A stretch of 64,000 nt of DNA from Methanobacteriota archaeon (GTDB lineage: Archaea > Thermoplasmatota > Thermoplasmata > UBA10834): NCBI GenBank assembly GCA_020348345.1, contig CP070748.1:570667-634666 (forward strand). The letters are read 5' to 3'. This document shows, in pieces, positions 14,904-23,573 of the stretch (position 1 is the stretch's first letter; the number at the start of each line of letters is the position of its first letter). Made by a program: the position numbers and the translations under genes. The notes below the pieces were generated by a model. The model ran no database searches and was not told the origin of the DNA. It saw only the letters and a list, made by a program, of their open reading frames with translations.

Positions 14904-16379
14904 TCACTTCTTCGGTATCTTTGTCTCCGCCTCTTTGACAATCGCTGCAAGTTCCTTCACGATGTCATCTGCGAGCGGCTCGACCTCGTGTGTCTTCAGT
15001 ATCTCTTTCGCCTTGTCGCGAGCGTGATCAGCGGCGTTCTTGCAGCCTCCAGCTTTCCAGTTCTTGTACGGCTGCCCGTCCGTGACCATCGGCTGCCACA
15101 TCTCCCTTGCGTGGTCGATCGTGTGCTTCTTGCCCATGAAATGTCCTTCCTGGCCCACGGCCTCGATGGTCGCGATTGCCAGCGTGTCATCGTTCACCGG
15201 CACGCCCTTGAGCATGTCGGCCATCATCGTGAACATCTCGTGGTCGATGATAAGCTGCTCGTACGACAGGACTGTCCAGTTCTCCAACATCCCCGGGCCT
15301 GAGGTCATGTCCGCGCCGGATAGGTACGCAATGAATGCTGAGAAGGCCTTCTCGTAGCCCGATTGGACGTCCGGCACTTTGGAGCACGAGCCCCAGCCGC
15401 CAATGAATATCGGTATGTCGTAGTACCTTGCCATCTGAACATGTGCAGCTCGAACCATGTTAGCCGCAGGGAACAGCCCTTCCATCAAGCCGGTCTGCAC
15501 ATCCATCGCCATAGGTTCGGAGCTGTAGCACAGCGGCGATCCTGGAGCCGCGAGCTGCAAGACAGTCGCACATGCGATTACCTGGGCGTTGCCTAGAAGA
15601 GTGGCGCCTGCAACAGTCATCGGCGCTGTCGCGCCTATGAGCGGCATGGCCATTAGCAGAGGCGGGCATCCCGCCCTGCTGAACTCTATCGCCGCGTCAG
15701 TCGTCATGCCAAGGACGAGCGGCGATGTCGTGCACGTGAGATTCGATATGATAGGTCGTCGCTTGAGCTCCTTCTCGCCACCGACTATTGCAGCGGCCAT
15801 CTTCAGCTCGTAGATGGCCTCCTCGCGTTTGTATGTCGATCCCGTCGTGTAATGTTTCGAACAGTTGATCATCGACTCCTCGAACTCATGCACTGTGTGT
15901 GCGTGTTCTGGGACATCCAATGGCGTAACGATCGGGTTGTACATGTGCATCATCGGCAGATAGTCAACGACCTTCGCCGACTCGCCAACGTCCTTCTTGG
16001 TGGACGGACGTCTCTCGCCTGTCTCGAGGTCGATCGTCGACAGGCCGACGCCGTCTGTGCAGGCGTAGCAGTGCCTGCCGTCAAGCACGAAGTCCTTTTC
16101 TGGGTCTCGAGCAGCCATCTTCACAGGGCGCTTGCACTTCCTCATCTGCTCGTCGATGAGATAGTTTGGTATCTTGCATATCTTCGTCTTCTCATCGACC
16201 TCTGCTCCGGCCTCCTTCAGCAGGGCTCTCGCCCTATCGCTCACGACCTTGATGCCCATGTTCTCGAGCAGATACAGGGAGTTAACGTGTATCGCATCCG
16301 CGCCGCTCTTGTCCATCACCTCGAGGCGCTCCATTCCGAATTGGCCTCTGGGCATGCTCTTGATCGCCATGTGTTTCAC
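14904..16379 (-). CDS. MttB-family methyltransferase without pyrrolysine (copy 1)
   Basis: A 491-residue TIM-barrel protein of the trimethylamine methyltransferase family (PF06253). Family features include ETGERRPSTKKDV, the GGEKELKRRPIISNLTC segment and SSEPMAMDVQTG. The frame has no in-frame TAG, so it belongs to the non-pyrrolysine branch, whose characterised members demethylate quaternary amines such as glycine betaine, proline betaine or carnitine and pass the methyl group to a corrinoid protein. Start GTG 16379 overlaps the stop of the upstream corrinoid gene in a GTGA arrangement; ATG 16370 is an alternative. The tight coupling strongly suggests that the two form a substrate-methyltransferase/corrinoid pair. 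The actual substrate cannot be told from sequence. Confidence 0.9.
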   Translation of the reverse strand: MKHMAIKSMPRGQFGMERLEVMDKSGADAIHVNSLYLLENMGIKVVSDRARALLKEAGAEVDEKTKICKIPNYLIDEQMRKCKRPVKMAARDPEKDFVLDGRHCYACTDGVGLSTIDLETGERRPSTKKDVGESAKVVDYLPMMHMYNPIVTPLDVPEHAHTVHEFEESMINCSKHYTTGSTYKREEAIYELKMAAAIVGGEKELKRRPIISNLTCTTSPLVLGMTTDAAIEFSRAGCPPLLMAMPLIGATAPMTVAGATLLGNAQVIACATVLQLAAPGSPLCYSSEPMAMDVQTGLMEGLFPAANMVRAAHVQMARYYDIPIFIGGWGSCSKVPDVQSGYEKAFSAFIAYLSGADMTSGPGMLENWTVLSYEQLIIDHEMFTMMADMLKGVPVNDDTLAIATIEAVGQEGHFMGKKHTIDHAREMWQPMVTDGQPYKNWKAGGCKNAADHARDKAKEILKTHEVEPLADDIVKELAAIVKEAETKIPKK

Positions 16380-17035
16380 GCCCCCTTGCCCGCAAGCTGC
16401 TTGGCCGTGTCGACAGACGTTCCCGCATCCGCGGAGTACGTCGCGCCTATCTCCTTAGCCCATTCCTCGGTGACTGCGGCTCCGCCGACCATCACAGGAG
16501 CGGCGACCCCCGCAGCCCTCAGGGCGTCCACGACCTCTTTCTGCATGCCGACGGTCGTCGTCATTAGCGACGATGCTCCGACGATGCCAGCACCGACCTC
16601 CTTTGATTTGTCAACGAAGAGCTCGTTCGCCGCATCCTTGCCGATGTCGTGAACCTCAAAACCACCTGCTTCGAGCATTATCTTCACTAGATTCTTGCCG
16701 ATGTCGTGTATGTCGCCTGCGACTGTCCCGATGACGACCTGGGCGATTACGTTGCGCTTACTCGCGGCCTTCTTAAGCTCCGGCTCAAGCACCTTGATCG
16801 CGCCTCCCATTATCTCTGCAGCGTAGATCAGCTCGACGACGAACATCTCCTTCCTCGCGAACTTCTCGCCCACCTCGCGTATGCCCTTGGCCAGGCCTTC
16901 CTCTATCGCTGCCACAGGATCTACACCTGCCGCCACGGCCTTCTGCACGGCCTCGATGGCGGCTTCCTCCTGAAGCGTCTTGACGCTGTTCTCAAGCTCA
17001 CTTATTATCGATTGCTTCTCCTCTTCTCCGGCCAT
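16376..17035 (-). CDS. Corrinoid (B12-binding) methyl-carrier protein
   Basis: A 219-residue MtbC/MttC-type cytoplasmic protein. Residues about 1-90 form the helical cap (B12-binding_2) and about 95-215 the Rossmann-like B12 domain. The cobalt-ligand motif DxHxxG is present as GDIHDIGKN, His110, and the later GASSLMTTTV and VMVGGAAVTEEWA segments complete the nucleotide-tail pocket. It is the first gene of a two-gene operon with the MttB homologue, overlapping by 4 bases. An AAGGTGG-type ribosome binding site lies about 6 bases before ATG 17035. The methyl acceptor enzyme (MtbA-like or methyl-H4F/H4MPT-linked) and the reactivase RamA are not in the window. Confidence 0.93.
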   Translation of the reverse strand: MAGEEEKQSIISELENSVKTLQEEAAIEAVQKAVAAGVDPVAAIEEGLAKGIREVGEKFARKEMFVVELIYAAEIMGGAIKVLEPELKKAASKRNVIAQVVIGTVAGDIHDIGKNLVKIMLEAGGFEVHDIGKDAANELFVDKSKEVGAGIVGASSLMTTTVGMQKEVVDALRAAGVAAPVMVGGAAVTEEWAKEIGATYSADAGTSVDTAKQLAGKGA

Positions 17036-17474: not shown

Positions 17475-18908
17475 TTGGCAATAGCGCGACTTAGGTTTTT
17501 GGGCAAGGAAGAGGAAGAGTTGGTGCATGAGCAGAGTCTGAAGAGCCTGACTAATCTGGGAGTGAAGGTCAAGAACGACAGGGTTCTGAAGATGCTCGAA
17601 GACGCAGGAGCTACCATTGACAAGGGCAAGAGCGTTGCGAAGATGTCCGAGGACATGGTCAATGCTGCGGTCAATAGCGCCCCCAAGAGTATCGTCCTCG
17701 GCGCCCGCAATCCCAAGCACGATAAGAAGGTGCCCGTCGAAACCCACTCCCTGCTTGCTACGACCGGCCTTGCCGTGTCCACTCCCGACCTTGAGACCGG
17801 CGAGATGCGCCCCTCGACCGACTCGGATCTGGCCAATTTTGCGAAGCTCGCAGATGCGCTGGACGGGATCGACGTAAGTTGGACGACGGTCACCGCAGGC
17901 GATGTCAATCAGGACACCCTCGCCATAAGGTCGCTCTGGACGTCGTTGAAGAACTGTGGAAAGCATGTGCAGGTTGTTCCCGCAGTGAGAGACGGCAGAG
18001 ATGCGCGGAAGCAGGCTGAGCTTGCAGCGCTCGTCGCTGGCGGGGAGGACGAGCTCAGAAAGCGCCCGCTGTTCTCCGTCATAAGCTGCCCGGTCGCGCC
18101 CCTGTCTTTCGACAAAGGCCCTGTCGACGCCCAGGTCGAGTTCGCTAGGGCAGGCATACCCCTGGTCGCCATGTCTATGTCGCTTTCCGGAATGTCCGCC
18201 CCAGTCACTATGGGAGGCACGCTTGTGAACATCAACACAGAGAATCTCGCCAGCCTTACGATATCGCAGACGGCAGCCGCTGGTGCACCGTTCATCTACA
18301 GTTCCGAATCCGCCCCAATCGATATGAAGACGGGAGTGATGGACTACACATCGCTCATGTTCCCGCTGATTAGCGCGGGTGCAGAGCAGATGGCCAAGAG
18401 GTACGGCCTCCCCACATTGACGGCAAGCTGGGGCTTCGAGACGAAGAACCCTGGTCTTCTGATGCCTTTCGGCGACGTCTTTCACACCGCAGTGAGCCCC
18501 CTGACCGGCTCCGACATGATTTCTGGAGCTGGCAGCATCGAGTTCGCAAAGGGAGCGTCGCTGGAGCAGATGGTGGTCGACTCCTATGTCTGGGAAGACG
18601 TCCGAGCCATCATGAAGAAGTACGAAGTAAGCGAAGAGACCGCAGCGCTGGATATCGTCGAGGAGGTCGGTCACGGCAACACATTCCTCAGCAATCTGCA
18701 CACCGTGCGCAACTTCAAGAAGGAGCTGATATTCCGAGATCCTGAGGTGCAGAAGCGGAAGGCCGCGATATCCGACAATATCGTGCCGAAGCTCAAAGAG
18801 CTCGTCCTGCGCACACTAGAGGAGCACCAGATTCCCCCGGTTGACGGTGACACGATGCAAAAGGGGGATGAGCTGATAGCGGCTTACCAGAAGGAGATTG
18901 CAACGTAG
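17475..18908 (+). CDS. MttB-family methyltransferase without pyrrolysine (copy 2)
   Basis: A 477-residue second member of PF06253, with ETGEMRPSTDSDLANF, GGEDELRKRPLFSVISCPVA and SSESAPIDMKTGV matching the same barrel positions as copy 1. No in-frame TAG. The start is TTG 17475: GGAGGTG at 17461-17467 is 7 bases upstream and there is no ATG nearby, a clear case of an SD-dictated TTG start. It is transcribed divergently from the corrinoid operon and could share that corrinoid carrier, since it has none of its own. It differs markedly from copies 1 and 3 in sequence, so a different methylated amine is likely. Confidence 0.9.
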   Translation: MAIARLRFLGKEEEELVHEQSLKSLTNLGVKVKNDRVLKMLEDAGATIDKGKSVAKMSEDMVNAAVNSAPKSIVLGARNPKHDKKVPVETHSLLATTGLAVSTPDLETGEMRPSTDSDLANFAKLADALDGIDVSWTTVTAGDVNQDTLAIRSLWTSLKNCGKHVQVVPAVRDGRDARKQAELAALVAGGEDELRKRPLFSVISCPVAPLSFDKGPVDAQVEFARAGIPLVAMSMSLSGMSAPVTMGGTLVNINTENLASLTISQTAAAGAPFIYSSESAPIDMKTGVMDYTSLMFPLISAGAEQMAKRYGLPTLTASWGFETKNPGLLMPFGDVFHTAVSPLTGSDMISGAGSIEFAKGASLEQMVVDSYVWEDVRAIMKKYEVSEETAALDIVEEVGHGNTFLSNLHTVRNFKKELIFRDPEVQKRKAAISDNIVPKLKELVLRTLEEHQIPPVDGDTMQKGDELIAAYQKEIAT

Positions 18909-20880: not shown

Positions 20881-21882
20881 CTACTTCGCCGCGTCGCAGT
20901 TCACCTGGTAGCGGTCGAGCTCATAGCTCTCCCTCGGCCTCTCCTCAGCTTGAATGGCGCGCTGTATGAACTGCCCACAGTTGCTTCCGATGCGGTTCTC
21001 CTCGAGCTCCCCAATGCTGAGAATCACATCGTAGCCGTTCCTCCCGAACTCCTCGACTAGCCCGCGTGAAGGGTCATCGATGTGGGGATCGATGATTGAT
21101 ATGAGCGACTCCTCCCTCGATCGCACTGTGGGGTTCAACGGCGTAAGCTTGATTATGAACTTCGCTGGGTTGAAGTGCCTCCGCACGACTGCAACGTCGA
21201 TCGGATAGCCTTCCGCAGGAGCGAAGTTGAGCGTGACCTTCTTGTCTCCCGCCTCGAGATCGATGAAGCGCTCGCAGTAGTTCGCTATCTCCTCAAGAGA
21301 GAGCTTCTTGGAGGGGATCATCTCATCGCGCTTGTCCTCGTCTGTGGTGTGTATCGAGAACTGTAGCTGGAACCTGCCGTTCGCGTAGCAGTCGTTCTTA
21401 ACCTCGATCAACCTGTCGAGAACATCCGGTGCGCCCCCCTGTTTCGGCGCGACGGTTGAGAGCGATGCGTAAAGGCCCGGAGCGTCGAACATCTTCGGCA
21501 GCATTCGAAGTGCGTCGAGCACTGCAGGGTTTAAAGTCGGCTCGCCCATTCTGGCGAACTGTACTTTGAACTTGTCGCTGGGGACCTTTCCATCGGGATA
21601 CCTTCGCCGTACGACGTAGTCCACCTGCGAGACGATTTCCTCAGCTGTCATCTTGCCCGAGTAGTTTCCCCCGGCGTCGCACATCTTGCATCTTATTGGG
21701 CATCCGAACATCGAGGACACTATGAGGACCCATTTTCTCTCGCGTGGGTTGGGCGGCTGAAGCGACTCCACAAATTCAATCATGTACTCTCCCTTCGCCT
21801 GCTTGTCGGTCTCAGCCTCCCTCATCCGCGCCACGTACACTTTAGCGAGGTCGTCTCGGCCATACTCGGCGATTACCCTCAT
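20881..21882 (-). CDS. RlmN/Cfr-like radical SAM protein
   Basis: A 333-residue enzyme with a CxxxCxxC cluster (FGCPIRCKMCDAGG, around residue 65) and the RlmN-type MGEPTLNP segment. SNCGQF near the C-terminus matches the CGQ position that carries the methyl-transferring cysteine in RlmN and Cfr. RlmN methylates A2503 of 23S rRNA and A37 of tRNA; here the N-terminal accessory domain is short and the cluster surroundings differ from bacterial RlmN, so the RNA target is open. Last gene of an operon; its ATG overlaps the stop of the flavoprotein gene (ATGA, 21879-21882). Confidence 0.78.
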   Translation of the reverse strand: MRVIAEYGRDDLAKVYVARMREAETDKQAKGEYMIEFVESLQPPNPRERKWVLIVSSMFGCPIRCKMCDAGGNYSGKMTAEEIVSQVDYVVRRRYPDGKVPSDKFKVQFARMGEPTLNPAVLDALRMLPKMFDAPGLYASLSTVAPKQGGAPDVLDRLIEVKNDCYANGRFQLQFSIHTTDEDKRDEMIPSKKLSLEEIANYCERFIDLEAGDKKVTLNFAPAEGYPIDVAVVRRHFNPAKFIIKLTPLNPTVRSREESLISIIDPHIDDPSRGLVEEFGRNGYDVILSIGELEENRIGSNCGQFIQRAIQAEERPRESYELDRYQVNCDAAK

Positions 21883-22790
21883 GCGTGCTCACCCCCGTCT
21901 CTTAACAATTGCTGGATCATCATGGCTGCCAGCACTCCGTCCCCCACAGCAATCGATGCCTGTCTGTTCATTCCTCTCGCGACATCGCCCGCAATGAATA
22001 GGCCAGGGATATTGGTGACGGGTGGTCTATCGACCGTCAACCCCTCCTTGAGCGAAGGATCGAGAGCGTCGAGCCGTGGTTCTCTTCCGTACGCGACTAT
22101 GATCAGATCGCTGATTATCTCGCTTGTACTTCCATCGTGTTCAAAATTGATGGCGACTCGATTCGCAGCCTCAGACAGCTCTGTGATATTGCCGCCCGTA
22201 ATCACATCCACTCCTCTCGCGCGGGCTCTCTCAACCAATAGCGATAGACATGTTGGCTCGGATCGGGAGATGATTGTTACAGAACCGCCCTTGCCGCTCA
22301 GGTTGATCGCATAGTCGAAGGCTGCATCGCCGCCTCCTAGCACGGCTATGCGTTTCCCAACTATATTCTTCGGCTTGAGCGATGAGACGCCGTAATGCAA
22401 GAGTCTGCCTTCGATCTCGGCCGCACCCGGGATGTTTGTTCGTCTTGGCGAAGTCCCAGTTGCGATAACGACGTAGTCCGAGACGTATCTCCCACTTGCA
22501 GTTGTCGTCAGGAATCCGTCGTCATCGACGATTACATTTATCGCCTCGGTTTGATCAAGCTTCACCTGTAGACGTTTGAGCTGCATTTCAATCAGCGACG
22601 CTAGGTCTCCGCCAACAATTCCCTCAGGAAATCCAGGATAGTTCTCCACGAGGTTCGCCTCTCGCAACAGCCCTCCGGGCTCGCCCTCTTCAAGCAACAA
22701 TGGCTCCAAGCCTGCGCGTTTGAGAAACATCCCTGCCGCTGCTCCCGCAGGACCTGAACCGATGACAACCACACTCACTCGCTCATCCAA
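21879..22790 (-). CDS. Thioredoxin-reductase-like FAD/NAD(P) oxidoreductase lacking the CxxC
   Basis: A 303-residue two-dinucleotide-domain flavoprotein. FAD loop VIGSGPAGAAAGMFL at the N-terminus, NAD(P) loop VLGGGDAAFDYA at about 150, and the FAD-closing GLFIAGDVARGMNRQASIAVGDG near the end are all TrxR-like. At the place where thioredoxin reductase has CATC (before the second Rossmann motif) the text is HYGVSSLKP, with no cysteine pair, so it cannot be a classical thioredoxin reductase. Ferredoxin-NAD(P) reductase-like electron transfer is a reasonable guess, and the radical SAM neighbour would need such an electron donor. Middle gene of the operon, overlapping both neighbours. Confidence 0.85.
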   Translation of the reverse strand: MDERVSVVVIGSGPAGAAAGMFLKRAGLEPLLLEEGEPGGLLREANLVENYPGFPEGIVGGDLASLIEMQLKRLQVKLDQTEAINVIVDDDGFLTTTASGRYVSDYVVIATGTSPRRTNIPGAAEIEGRLLHYGVSSLKPKNIVGKRIAVLGGGDAAFDYAINLSGKGGSVTIISRSEPTCLSLLVERARARGVDVITGGNITELSEAANRVAINFEHDGSTSEIISDLIIVAYGREPRLDALDPSLKEGLTVDRPPVTNIPGLFIAGDVARGMNRQASIAVGDGVLAAMMIQQLLRDGGEHA

Positions 22791-23428
22791 GCGAGCACCT
22801 CCTTCGTCGTGACAGGCACTGCGAAACCGTCTGTGAGGGTTCTGAGGCTGGAAAGGTGCAATTCCTCATCACTCGACGCTGTTCCATCCACTACGAAGTA
22901 GACATCGAAATCCCTCATGAACGCGTCCCTAGCCGTCGTTTCACAGCACAGGTGAGTCATTACACCGGTGACCACAACGCTCCTGACGCCGTTGGTGCGA
23001 AGCACGGAATCGAGATCAGTTCCCACGAACGCGCTATATCTTGTCTTTCTCAGAACCTGATCGCTCGGCTCTGGCGCGATCTCGGGGGCGAACTCCGACA
23101 ACGGGTCGCCGACTCGTAGAACGTCGCTCCACCATCTCTCCATTATGCCTGCAGGCTCCTCGTCGAGCAGAGCGTGCCTGGTAAAGATGACTGGTCGCCG
23201 TTTCGCTCTGAAGAAATCCGCCAGCTTCCTGATATTCTCGAGCACGCTTCTTCCCGCTGGAACGCATGCATGCGAGTCCTCATCGAGGAAGTACCTCTGC
23301 ATGTCGATTACAAGCAATGCTGATTCGGTCGGTGATAGAGTGACGCGCTCTTCCCGGCTAGGGCTCCTGTAACGACGAACGGCCTCCAACCATTCGCACA
23401 CTTTAGCTCCGGGGTCGCTGCCGGCCAT
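22775..23428 (-). CDS. Isochorismatase-fold cysteine hydrolase
   Basis: A 217-residue protein of the isochorismatase/nicotinamidase superfamily. The triad is visible: Asp in LLVIDMQRYF (Asp42), Lys in VLRKTRYSAF and Cys in MTHLCCETTARDAF; the last motif is the usual cis-peptide/cysteine loop. Substrates in the superfamily include nicotinamide, N-carbamoyl compounds, biuret and isochorismate; none can be selected here. Start ATG 23428 is chosen because GAGAGG lies 8 bases upstream; GTG 23434 is too close to it. It leads an operon with the flavoprotein (16-base overlap) and radical SAM genes, and its ribosome binding site lies inside a predicted pseudoknot. Confidence 0.88.
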   Translation of the reverse strand: MAGSDPGAKVCEWLEAVRRYRSPSREERVTLSPTESALLVIDMQRYFLDEDSHACVPAGRSVLENIRKLADFFRAKRRPVIFTRHALLDEEPAGIMERWWSDVLRVGDPLSEFAPEIAPEPSDQVLRKTRYSAFVGTDLDSVLRTNGVRSVVVTGVMTHLCCETTARDAFMRDFDVYFVVDGTASSDEELHLSSLRTLTDGFAVPVTTKEVLAWMSE

Positions 23429-23436
23429 AATCACAA

Positions 23437-23498
23437 CCTCTCAATCGGCCGTTTCCTGGTTTGAGAGGCTGGAAACGCGAGAAACAATGCCTCGGCAT
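23437..23498 (-). promoter_or_regulatory. Structured leader: H-type pseudoknot over the ribosome binding site
   Basis: In mRNA sense (minus strand): CGTTTCC (23477-23471), AG, CCTCTCAA (23468-23461), ACCA, GGAAACG (23456-23450), GCCGA, TTGAGAGG (23444-23437), then 8 bases to ATG 23428. The two perfect stems of 7 and 8 bp interleave, the order required for an H-type pseudoknot with loops of 2, 4 and 5 bases. The last strand contains the GAGAGG Shine-Dalgarno sequence, so folding would mask it. A small palindrome ATGCCTCGGCAT lies upstream at 23487-23498, and an AAATATAG TATA-like box at about 23519-23526 would place the 5' end near 23497. Two nested DNA operators are the alternative reading. 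Confidence 0.45.
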
Positions 23499-23573
23499 CG
23501 GTTGTTCAATGCGTTCCGCTATATTTGCTTTTCCCGCTCCCCTGAGGGACACATATGGTCATGTGTTCTCTGA

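Follow-up and report, generated by a model that had tools for sequence, protein, structure and literature searches.

A conserved H-type pseudoknot in archaeal leaders as a riboswitch candidate of the p-aminobenzoate/folate pathway

p-Aminobenzoate (pABA) is a building block of folate, and to our knowledge few riboswitch classes have been described in archaea. SAM-II is a compact H-type pseudoknot that lies near the Shine–Dalgarno (SD) sequence. Much the same can be said of preQ1-I (type III), likewise a compact H-type pseudoknot near the SD (PMC11625349), and the THF-II riboswitch (that is, the folE motif) is found before folE in Rhizobiales, where the ribosome-binding site is masked and stems P1 and P2 enclose an internal bulge (PMC6800512). 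The leader described here resembles preQ1-I (type III) and SAM-II as a compact H-type pseudoknot beside the SD, but differs from both in its conserved letters and its genes. With THF-I and THF-II it shares a probable place among the short leaders of folate metabolism, yet, in contrast to the bulged stems of THF-II before folE, it is a mostly archaeal H-type pseudoknot before candidate pABA-supply genes; from the crcB (fluoride) and TPP riboswitches it differs in structure, presumed ligand and genes. In the window (that is, the whole 64,000-nucleotide stretch of archaeal DNA that was analysed), no Rfam family reached its gathering threshold at the site, preQ1, SAM-II and THF-I/II included, and in seven loci, scanned with E values of up to 5, none matched the motif. 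An earlier sequence-only reading had likened the layout to preQ1- and SAM-II-type riboswitches; the layout of a compact translational riboswitch is indeed present, but the Rfam searches (window and seven loci) returned no match to either family. Judged from its sequence, the leader appears to work like a compact riboswitch that is a member of none of the families tested in those searches, and the open-licence PMC papers searched held no account of the motif. We suggest that it is probably a cis-acting RNA with an H-type pseudoknot core that binds a small molecule of the pABA/folate pathway and controls how the operon is translated.

The operon lies on the minus strand and starts with the gene for an isochorismatase-fold cysteine hydrolase (22775–23428; Pfam PF00857; start codon ATG at 23428), in which D42, K128 and C161, an Asp–Lys–Cys triad, are invariant in an alignment of 11. 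It continues with a thioredoxin-reductase-like flavoprotein (21879–22790) that lacks CxxC in 11 of 11 aligned sequences, and an RlmN/Cfr-like radical-SAM protein (20881–21882) in which CxxxCxxC is kept and a C-terminal NCGQ is found in 10 of 11. The two perfect stems of 7 and 8 bp that had been proposed for the leader are exact: CGTTTCC (23477–23471, minus strand) pairs with GGAAACG (23456–23450) and CCTCTCAA (23468–23461) with TTGAGAGG (23444–23437), in the order a–b–a′–b′ and within 41 bases, and the GAGAGG noted before the ATG is present at 23442–23437, followed by TTGTGATT and the start codon. When the 71-mer leader was shuffled 20,000 times with its dinucleotides kept, an interleaved 7+8 bp pair arose once, and the 64-kb window has no second instance of such a pair. 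The second stem is longer than had been given (CAGCCTCTCAA/TTGAGAGGTTG, 11 bp including G-U), and a third strand had been overlooked: GAGGC at 23493–23489, complementary to GCCTC at 23469–23465. On the evidence of the alignments, this GAGGC/GCCTC helix (P1) is the pairing conserved across phyla, and its formation would exclude the second stem. The first stem is P2, and the strand order P1–P2–P1′–P2′ is that of an H-type pseudoknot, the architecture also of preQ1 and SAM-II; the original proposal of such a knot is therefore right as to a structured leader and its first stem, but the conserved knot consists of P1 and P2 rather than of both stems first noted.

Read from the 5′ end (all on the minus strand), the leader comprises the P1 5′ strand GAGGC (23489–23493), which pairs with 23465–23469; loop L1 (23478–23488), with a conserved AUUGUU and a variable linker in alignment A1; the P2 5′ strand CGTTTCC (23471–23477); the P1 3′ strand GCCTC (23465–23469), which alignment, covariation and a helix test assign both to P1 and to an anti-SD helix, P3; loop L3, TCAAACCA (23457–23464), with a conserved AAnCCA; and the P2 3′ strand GGAAACG (23450–23456), supported, like its partner, by alignment and covariation. 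The same pseudoknot, that is, P1, AUUGUU, P2 and AAnCCA, is shared by about 80 relatives, and orthologous isochorismatase operons of related genomes carry this common leader. Its hosts are Thermoplasmatota along with three genomes each of Altiarchaeota and WOR-3/Stahlbacteria, a few of the leaders being bacterial. A core-only pattern, in which three short words were separated by gaps of free length, gave 71 matching stretches in 257 Gb of genome contigs. Most were from Thermoplasmatota, and about a dozen were chance bacterial matches without the pairing. As this pattern fixed GCATTGTT, TTCCAGC and CCAGGAA, the invariance of these words in alignment A1 arises partly by construction, as does that of some L1 core letters; variants of the core, L1 included, were seen in model hits (for example, GCACTGTT, GCAATGGTT and AATAGGAA). 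Model hits below 30 bits, several of them inside ORFs, were treated as chance (L143–L148, L150, L156, L158, L159 and L163–L167), except that L149 (22.6 bits) and L157 (27.5 bits) were retained as real on context. The last model search, of 80 genomes, brought no new kind of site, and a search of viral contigs found no motif.

Given that the pattern fixed only core letters, the bases outside it provide an independent test of pairing. At the positions that the pattern left free, 89.7% of cells are paired against 79.2% after shuffling, with 89 double-change cells and with 0 of 500 shuffles reaching the observed level; these counts treat related sequences as separate. Controls with a slid register drop to 33–56% pairing. 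In a non-redundant set of 54 sites, from which sites more than 80% alike were dropped, P1 base pairs 1–3 form in 100, 96 and 65% and P2 base pairs 4–5 in 87 and 81%, and P1 base pair 2 is GC in 26, AT in 15, CG in 6 and TA in 3, with pairing kept. Strong covariation is thus seen in P1 (a GC and three variable pairs) and in the P2 extensions. Of the two stems first noted, P2 covaries across the aligned sites, whereas the second is an alternative helix found mainly in the window's own family. Conservation and covariation of this kind are what a riboswitch leader would be expected to display.

The motif sites lie close upstream of a start codon, and over 79 sites A+T content peaks between positions −38 and −25 ahead of the motif, TATA-like and about 30 nt to its 5′ side; in the window, the TATA-like box AAATATA (23520–23526, minus strand) predicts a transcription start at about 23497–23500, just before P1. 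Inverted repeats near a promoter could also be a pair of interleaved operators, DNA sites to which a transcription factor binds; this alternative had been offered by the sequence-only reading. We consider this very improbable, as it fits poorly with P1 bases that change freely while pairing is kept and with loops that are asymmetric and conserved, and the repeats would lie downstream of the predicted start site, near the SD.

All 80 classified sites precede an isochorismatase/flavoprotein/radical-SAM operon (the whole operon or its flavoprotein–radical-SAM part), an MFS gene, DUF3311+SSS genes or pabB, and sites of at least about 35 bits always stand before pabB–pabC, an MFS or DUF3311+SSS transporter, or the isochorismatase operon. 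The pabB–pabC context occurs in all three Altiarchaeota: L086 (G427), where the motif precedes pabB–pabA–pabC–folPK, and two further sites (L155/L169 and L157/L168) from a search of 29 genomes of the same phylum. In WOR-3/Stahlbacteria (G428, G429 and G518), the motif stands ahead of an SSS gene; an SSS site (L162) came from a search of 147 genomes around WOR-3. For the three Altiarchaeota chorismate enzymes, the top-scoring NCBIfam model is trpE_most, below its cut-off, and a pabB cut-off is passed only by the L168 protein, so that NCBIfam does not settle PabB versus TrpE; we read these genes as PabB because a PabC-like aminotransferase gene adjoins each of them and the L086 operon runs into folP–folK, and on the same grounds tryptophan was rejected as a ligand. 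The sites thus stand upstream of genes that would belong to one pathway, as expected of a riboswitch, with the transporters and the isochorismatase operon placed in it by inference. The conserved loops could instead serve as contacts for a protein, which as an autoregulator or translational repressor would take the place of the metabolite; no regulator gene shared by the sites was seen among their neighbours, and an occurrence in both archaea and bacteria, ahead of varied target genes, is, in our judgement, more usual for riboswitches, which makes a protein-bound pseudoknot decidedly unlikely.

Some neighbourhoods are recorded here in their own right. In G016 (L179) a TrpE/PabB-like gene and the isochorismatase operon are divergently oriented, and in G010 a chorismate-binding match is also close to the operon. 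In G052 and G033 (L107/L108) the motif precedes the flavoprotein and radical-SAM genes; the isochorismatase homologue is encoded at another place, at which no motif was hit. Genes near the G043 operon were read, by sequence alone, as FolC, MetF and a methyl-THF methyltransferase.

The survey of pathway content took in 70 genomes: Thermoplasmatota with and without the motif, together with the genomes that carry L086 (G427), L084 (G428) and L056 (G429). FolP scored over the cut-off in 67 of the 70 and was not found in G185 and G210, which have SSS-type sites and are 81–84% complete, a point against our explanation. RFAP synthase, a methanopterin marker, was over the cut-off in none of the 70 (weak matches in 23), and H4MPT was rejected as a ligand on this result, for a set that does not include G453, G454 and G518. 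Two chorismate-binding genes were found only in G427 (Altiarchaeota) and G057, and many of the 70 genomes have none; for the other two Altiarchaeota, a separate PF00425 search gave three matches (two partial) in G453 and two in G454, and no chorismate-binding enzyme was found in G428, G429 and G518. In several genomes that have both FolP and the isochorismatase operon, no chorismate-binding enzyme was found at all. However, in the motif-free Thermoplasmatota of the set, too, at most one such enzyme was found (except in G057), so a missing PabB does not set motif carriers apart, which counts against our explanation. The operon's radical-SAM gene accompanies 18 of 18 isochorismatase- or flavoprotein-type sites and absent from the 14 SSS-type genomes tested (G228 and G322 fell outside the search) and from eight of nine MFS-type genomes, G239 having both; within one genus, operon and importer are swapped (G122 versus G098, G137 and G272). 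As operon and importers replace each other between genomes, the simplest reading is that they supply the same compound, and as pabB–pabC follows the motif in Altiarchaeota, that compound may be pABA. The MFS and DUF3311+SSS proteins are accordingly candidate pABA importers, and the isochorismatase operon may be another way to obtain pABA.

The earlier proposal that the second stem masks the ribosome-binding site is supported, given that the 11-bp helix P3 buries the SD in the window leader. Its 5′ (anti-SD) strand CAGCCTCTCAA (23461–23471, minus strand), which includes the CCTCTCAA of the first description, pairs with TTGAGAGGTTG (23434–23444), which carries the SD GAGGT (23436–23440), at a shuffle p of about 0.001, and RNAfold, which does not consider pseudoknots, chose the SD-masking helix for this leader. 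P3-type helices of 9–13 bp (shuffle p 0.001–0.014) occur in nine of ten window-family sites tested, the exception being L010. The helix is clear in this family and a few others and not significant in most MFS and SSS leaders; it was rejected as a general platform on that account, and a clade-specific anti-SD:SD helix is our candidate expression platform. Because P1 and P3 both use GCCTC, they are mutually exclusive: with P1 and P2 formed the SD would be free, and with P3 formed it would be hidden. As P1 and the SD compete for GCCTC, the pseudoknot would be the open state (that is, ON by geometry) in the window's clade. An OFF sign is suggested for L086, whose single SD-like word (GGA) overlaps with the 3′ arm of P2, and for several MFS leaders, whose SD directly adjoins that arm. 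As separate observations, L136, L137 and L138 have GGAAACGGCGG after the motif and then CCGCCGTTTCC, in full or shortened; the hairpin so formed would be an alternative to P2 and in competition with it. L186 (G030) has a GC-rich hairpin, CCCGGTATTGCCGGG, 3′ of P2, with an A+T stretch ahead of the start codon.

An ON geometry would be odd for a biosynthetic operon repressed by its end product, and this, too, weighs against our explanation. The isochorismatase operon might then be a ligand-induced route of salvage or breakdown rather than of pABA synthesis, as the 9–13 bp anti-SD helix of the window's family would make the pseudoknot state open and a triad of the cysteine-hydrolase type points to an amide or similar bond as the one cleaved; we consider this somewhat unlikely, given that the operon replaces importers between genomes, as a supply route would. 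We therefore keep to a riboswitch of the pABA/folate pathway, in which P1, P2 and the conserved loops would form an aptamer-like core, a small molecule of the pathway would bind it and thereby set translation of the downstream operon, and the downstream genes (pabB–pabC, an importer or the isochorismatase operon) would be alternative suppliers of pABA.

Gene content cannot separate pABA from folate as the ligand. The same RNA may sense a folate end product (DHF, THF or a derivative), as a third, archaeal THF-type riboswitch controlling only the pABA branch: FolP is nearly universal in the genomes surveyed, the pterin-like preQ1 is bound by small H-type pseudoknots (PMC11625349) and THF riboswitch classes already number two (PMC6800512). 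Yet every classified site stands before pABA-supply candidates and none before folE/mptA, folC or C1 genes, and the THF-I/II families are among those without a match in the window or the seven loci, which leaves this possibility doubtful though worth serious weight. Unlikely, as a more specific claim, is that this is the first riboswitch class for pABA itself, which would also mark pABA importers and a chorismate-independent pABA route (isochorismatase-fold hydrolase, thioredoxin-reductase-like flavoprotein without CxxC and RlmN-like radical-SAM enzyme) in folate-using archaea. If either pABA or a folate is bound, the motif would represent a class of sensors that serves a central vitamin pathway, would name MFS and DUF3311+SSS proteins as candidate pABA importers and would make the pABA source of archaea with FolP but without PabB testable.

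Elsewhere in the window, the sole Rfam hit, unrelated to the leader, is a PYLIS_3 match at 15293–15403 (minus strand; 39 bits against a gathering threshold of 38). It falls within an MttB-like ORF (14904–16379) that has no in-frame TAG, and for this reason looks like mttB homology rather than a pyrrolysine site. A corrinoid-protein-like ORF (16376–17035, minus strand) and a second MttB-like ORF (17475–18908, plus strand) were identified by reading their sequences, as were similar MttB-like genes in the neighbourhood of the operon in G006 and G008.
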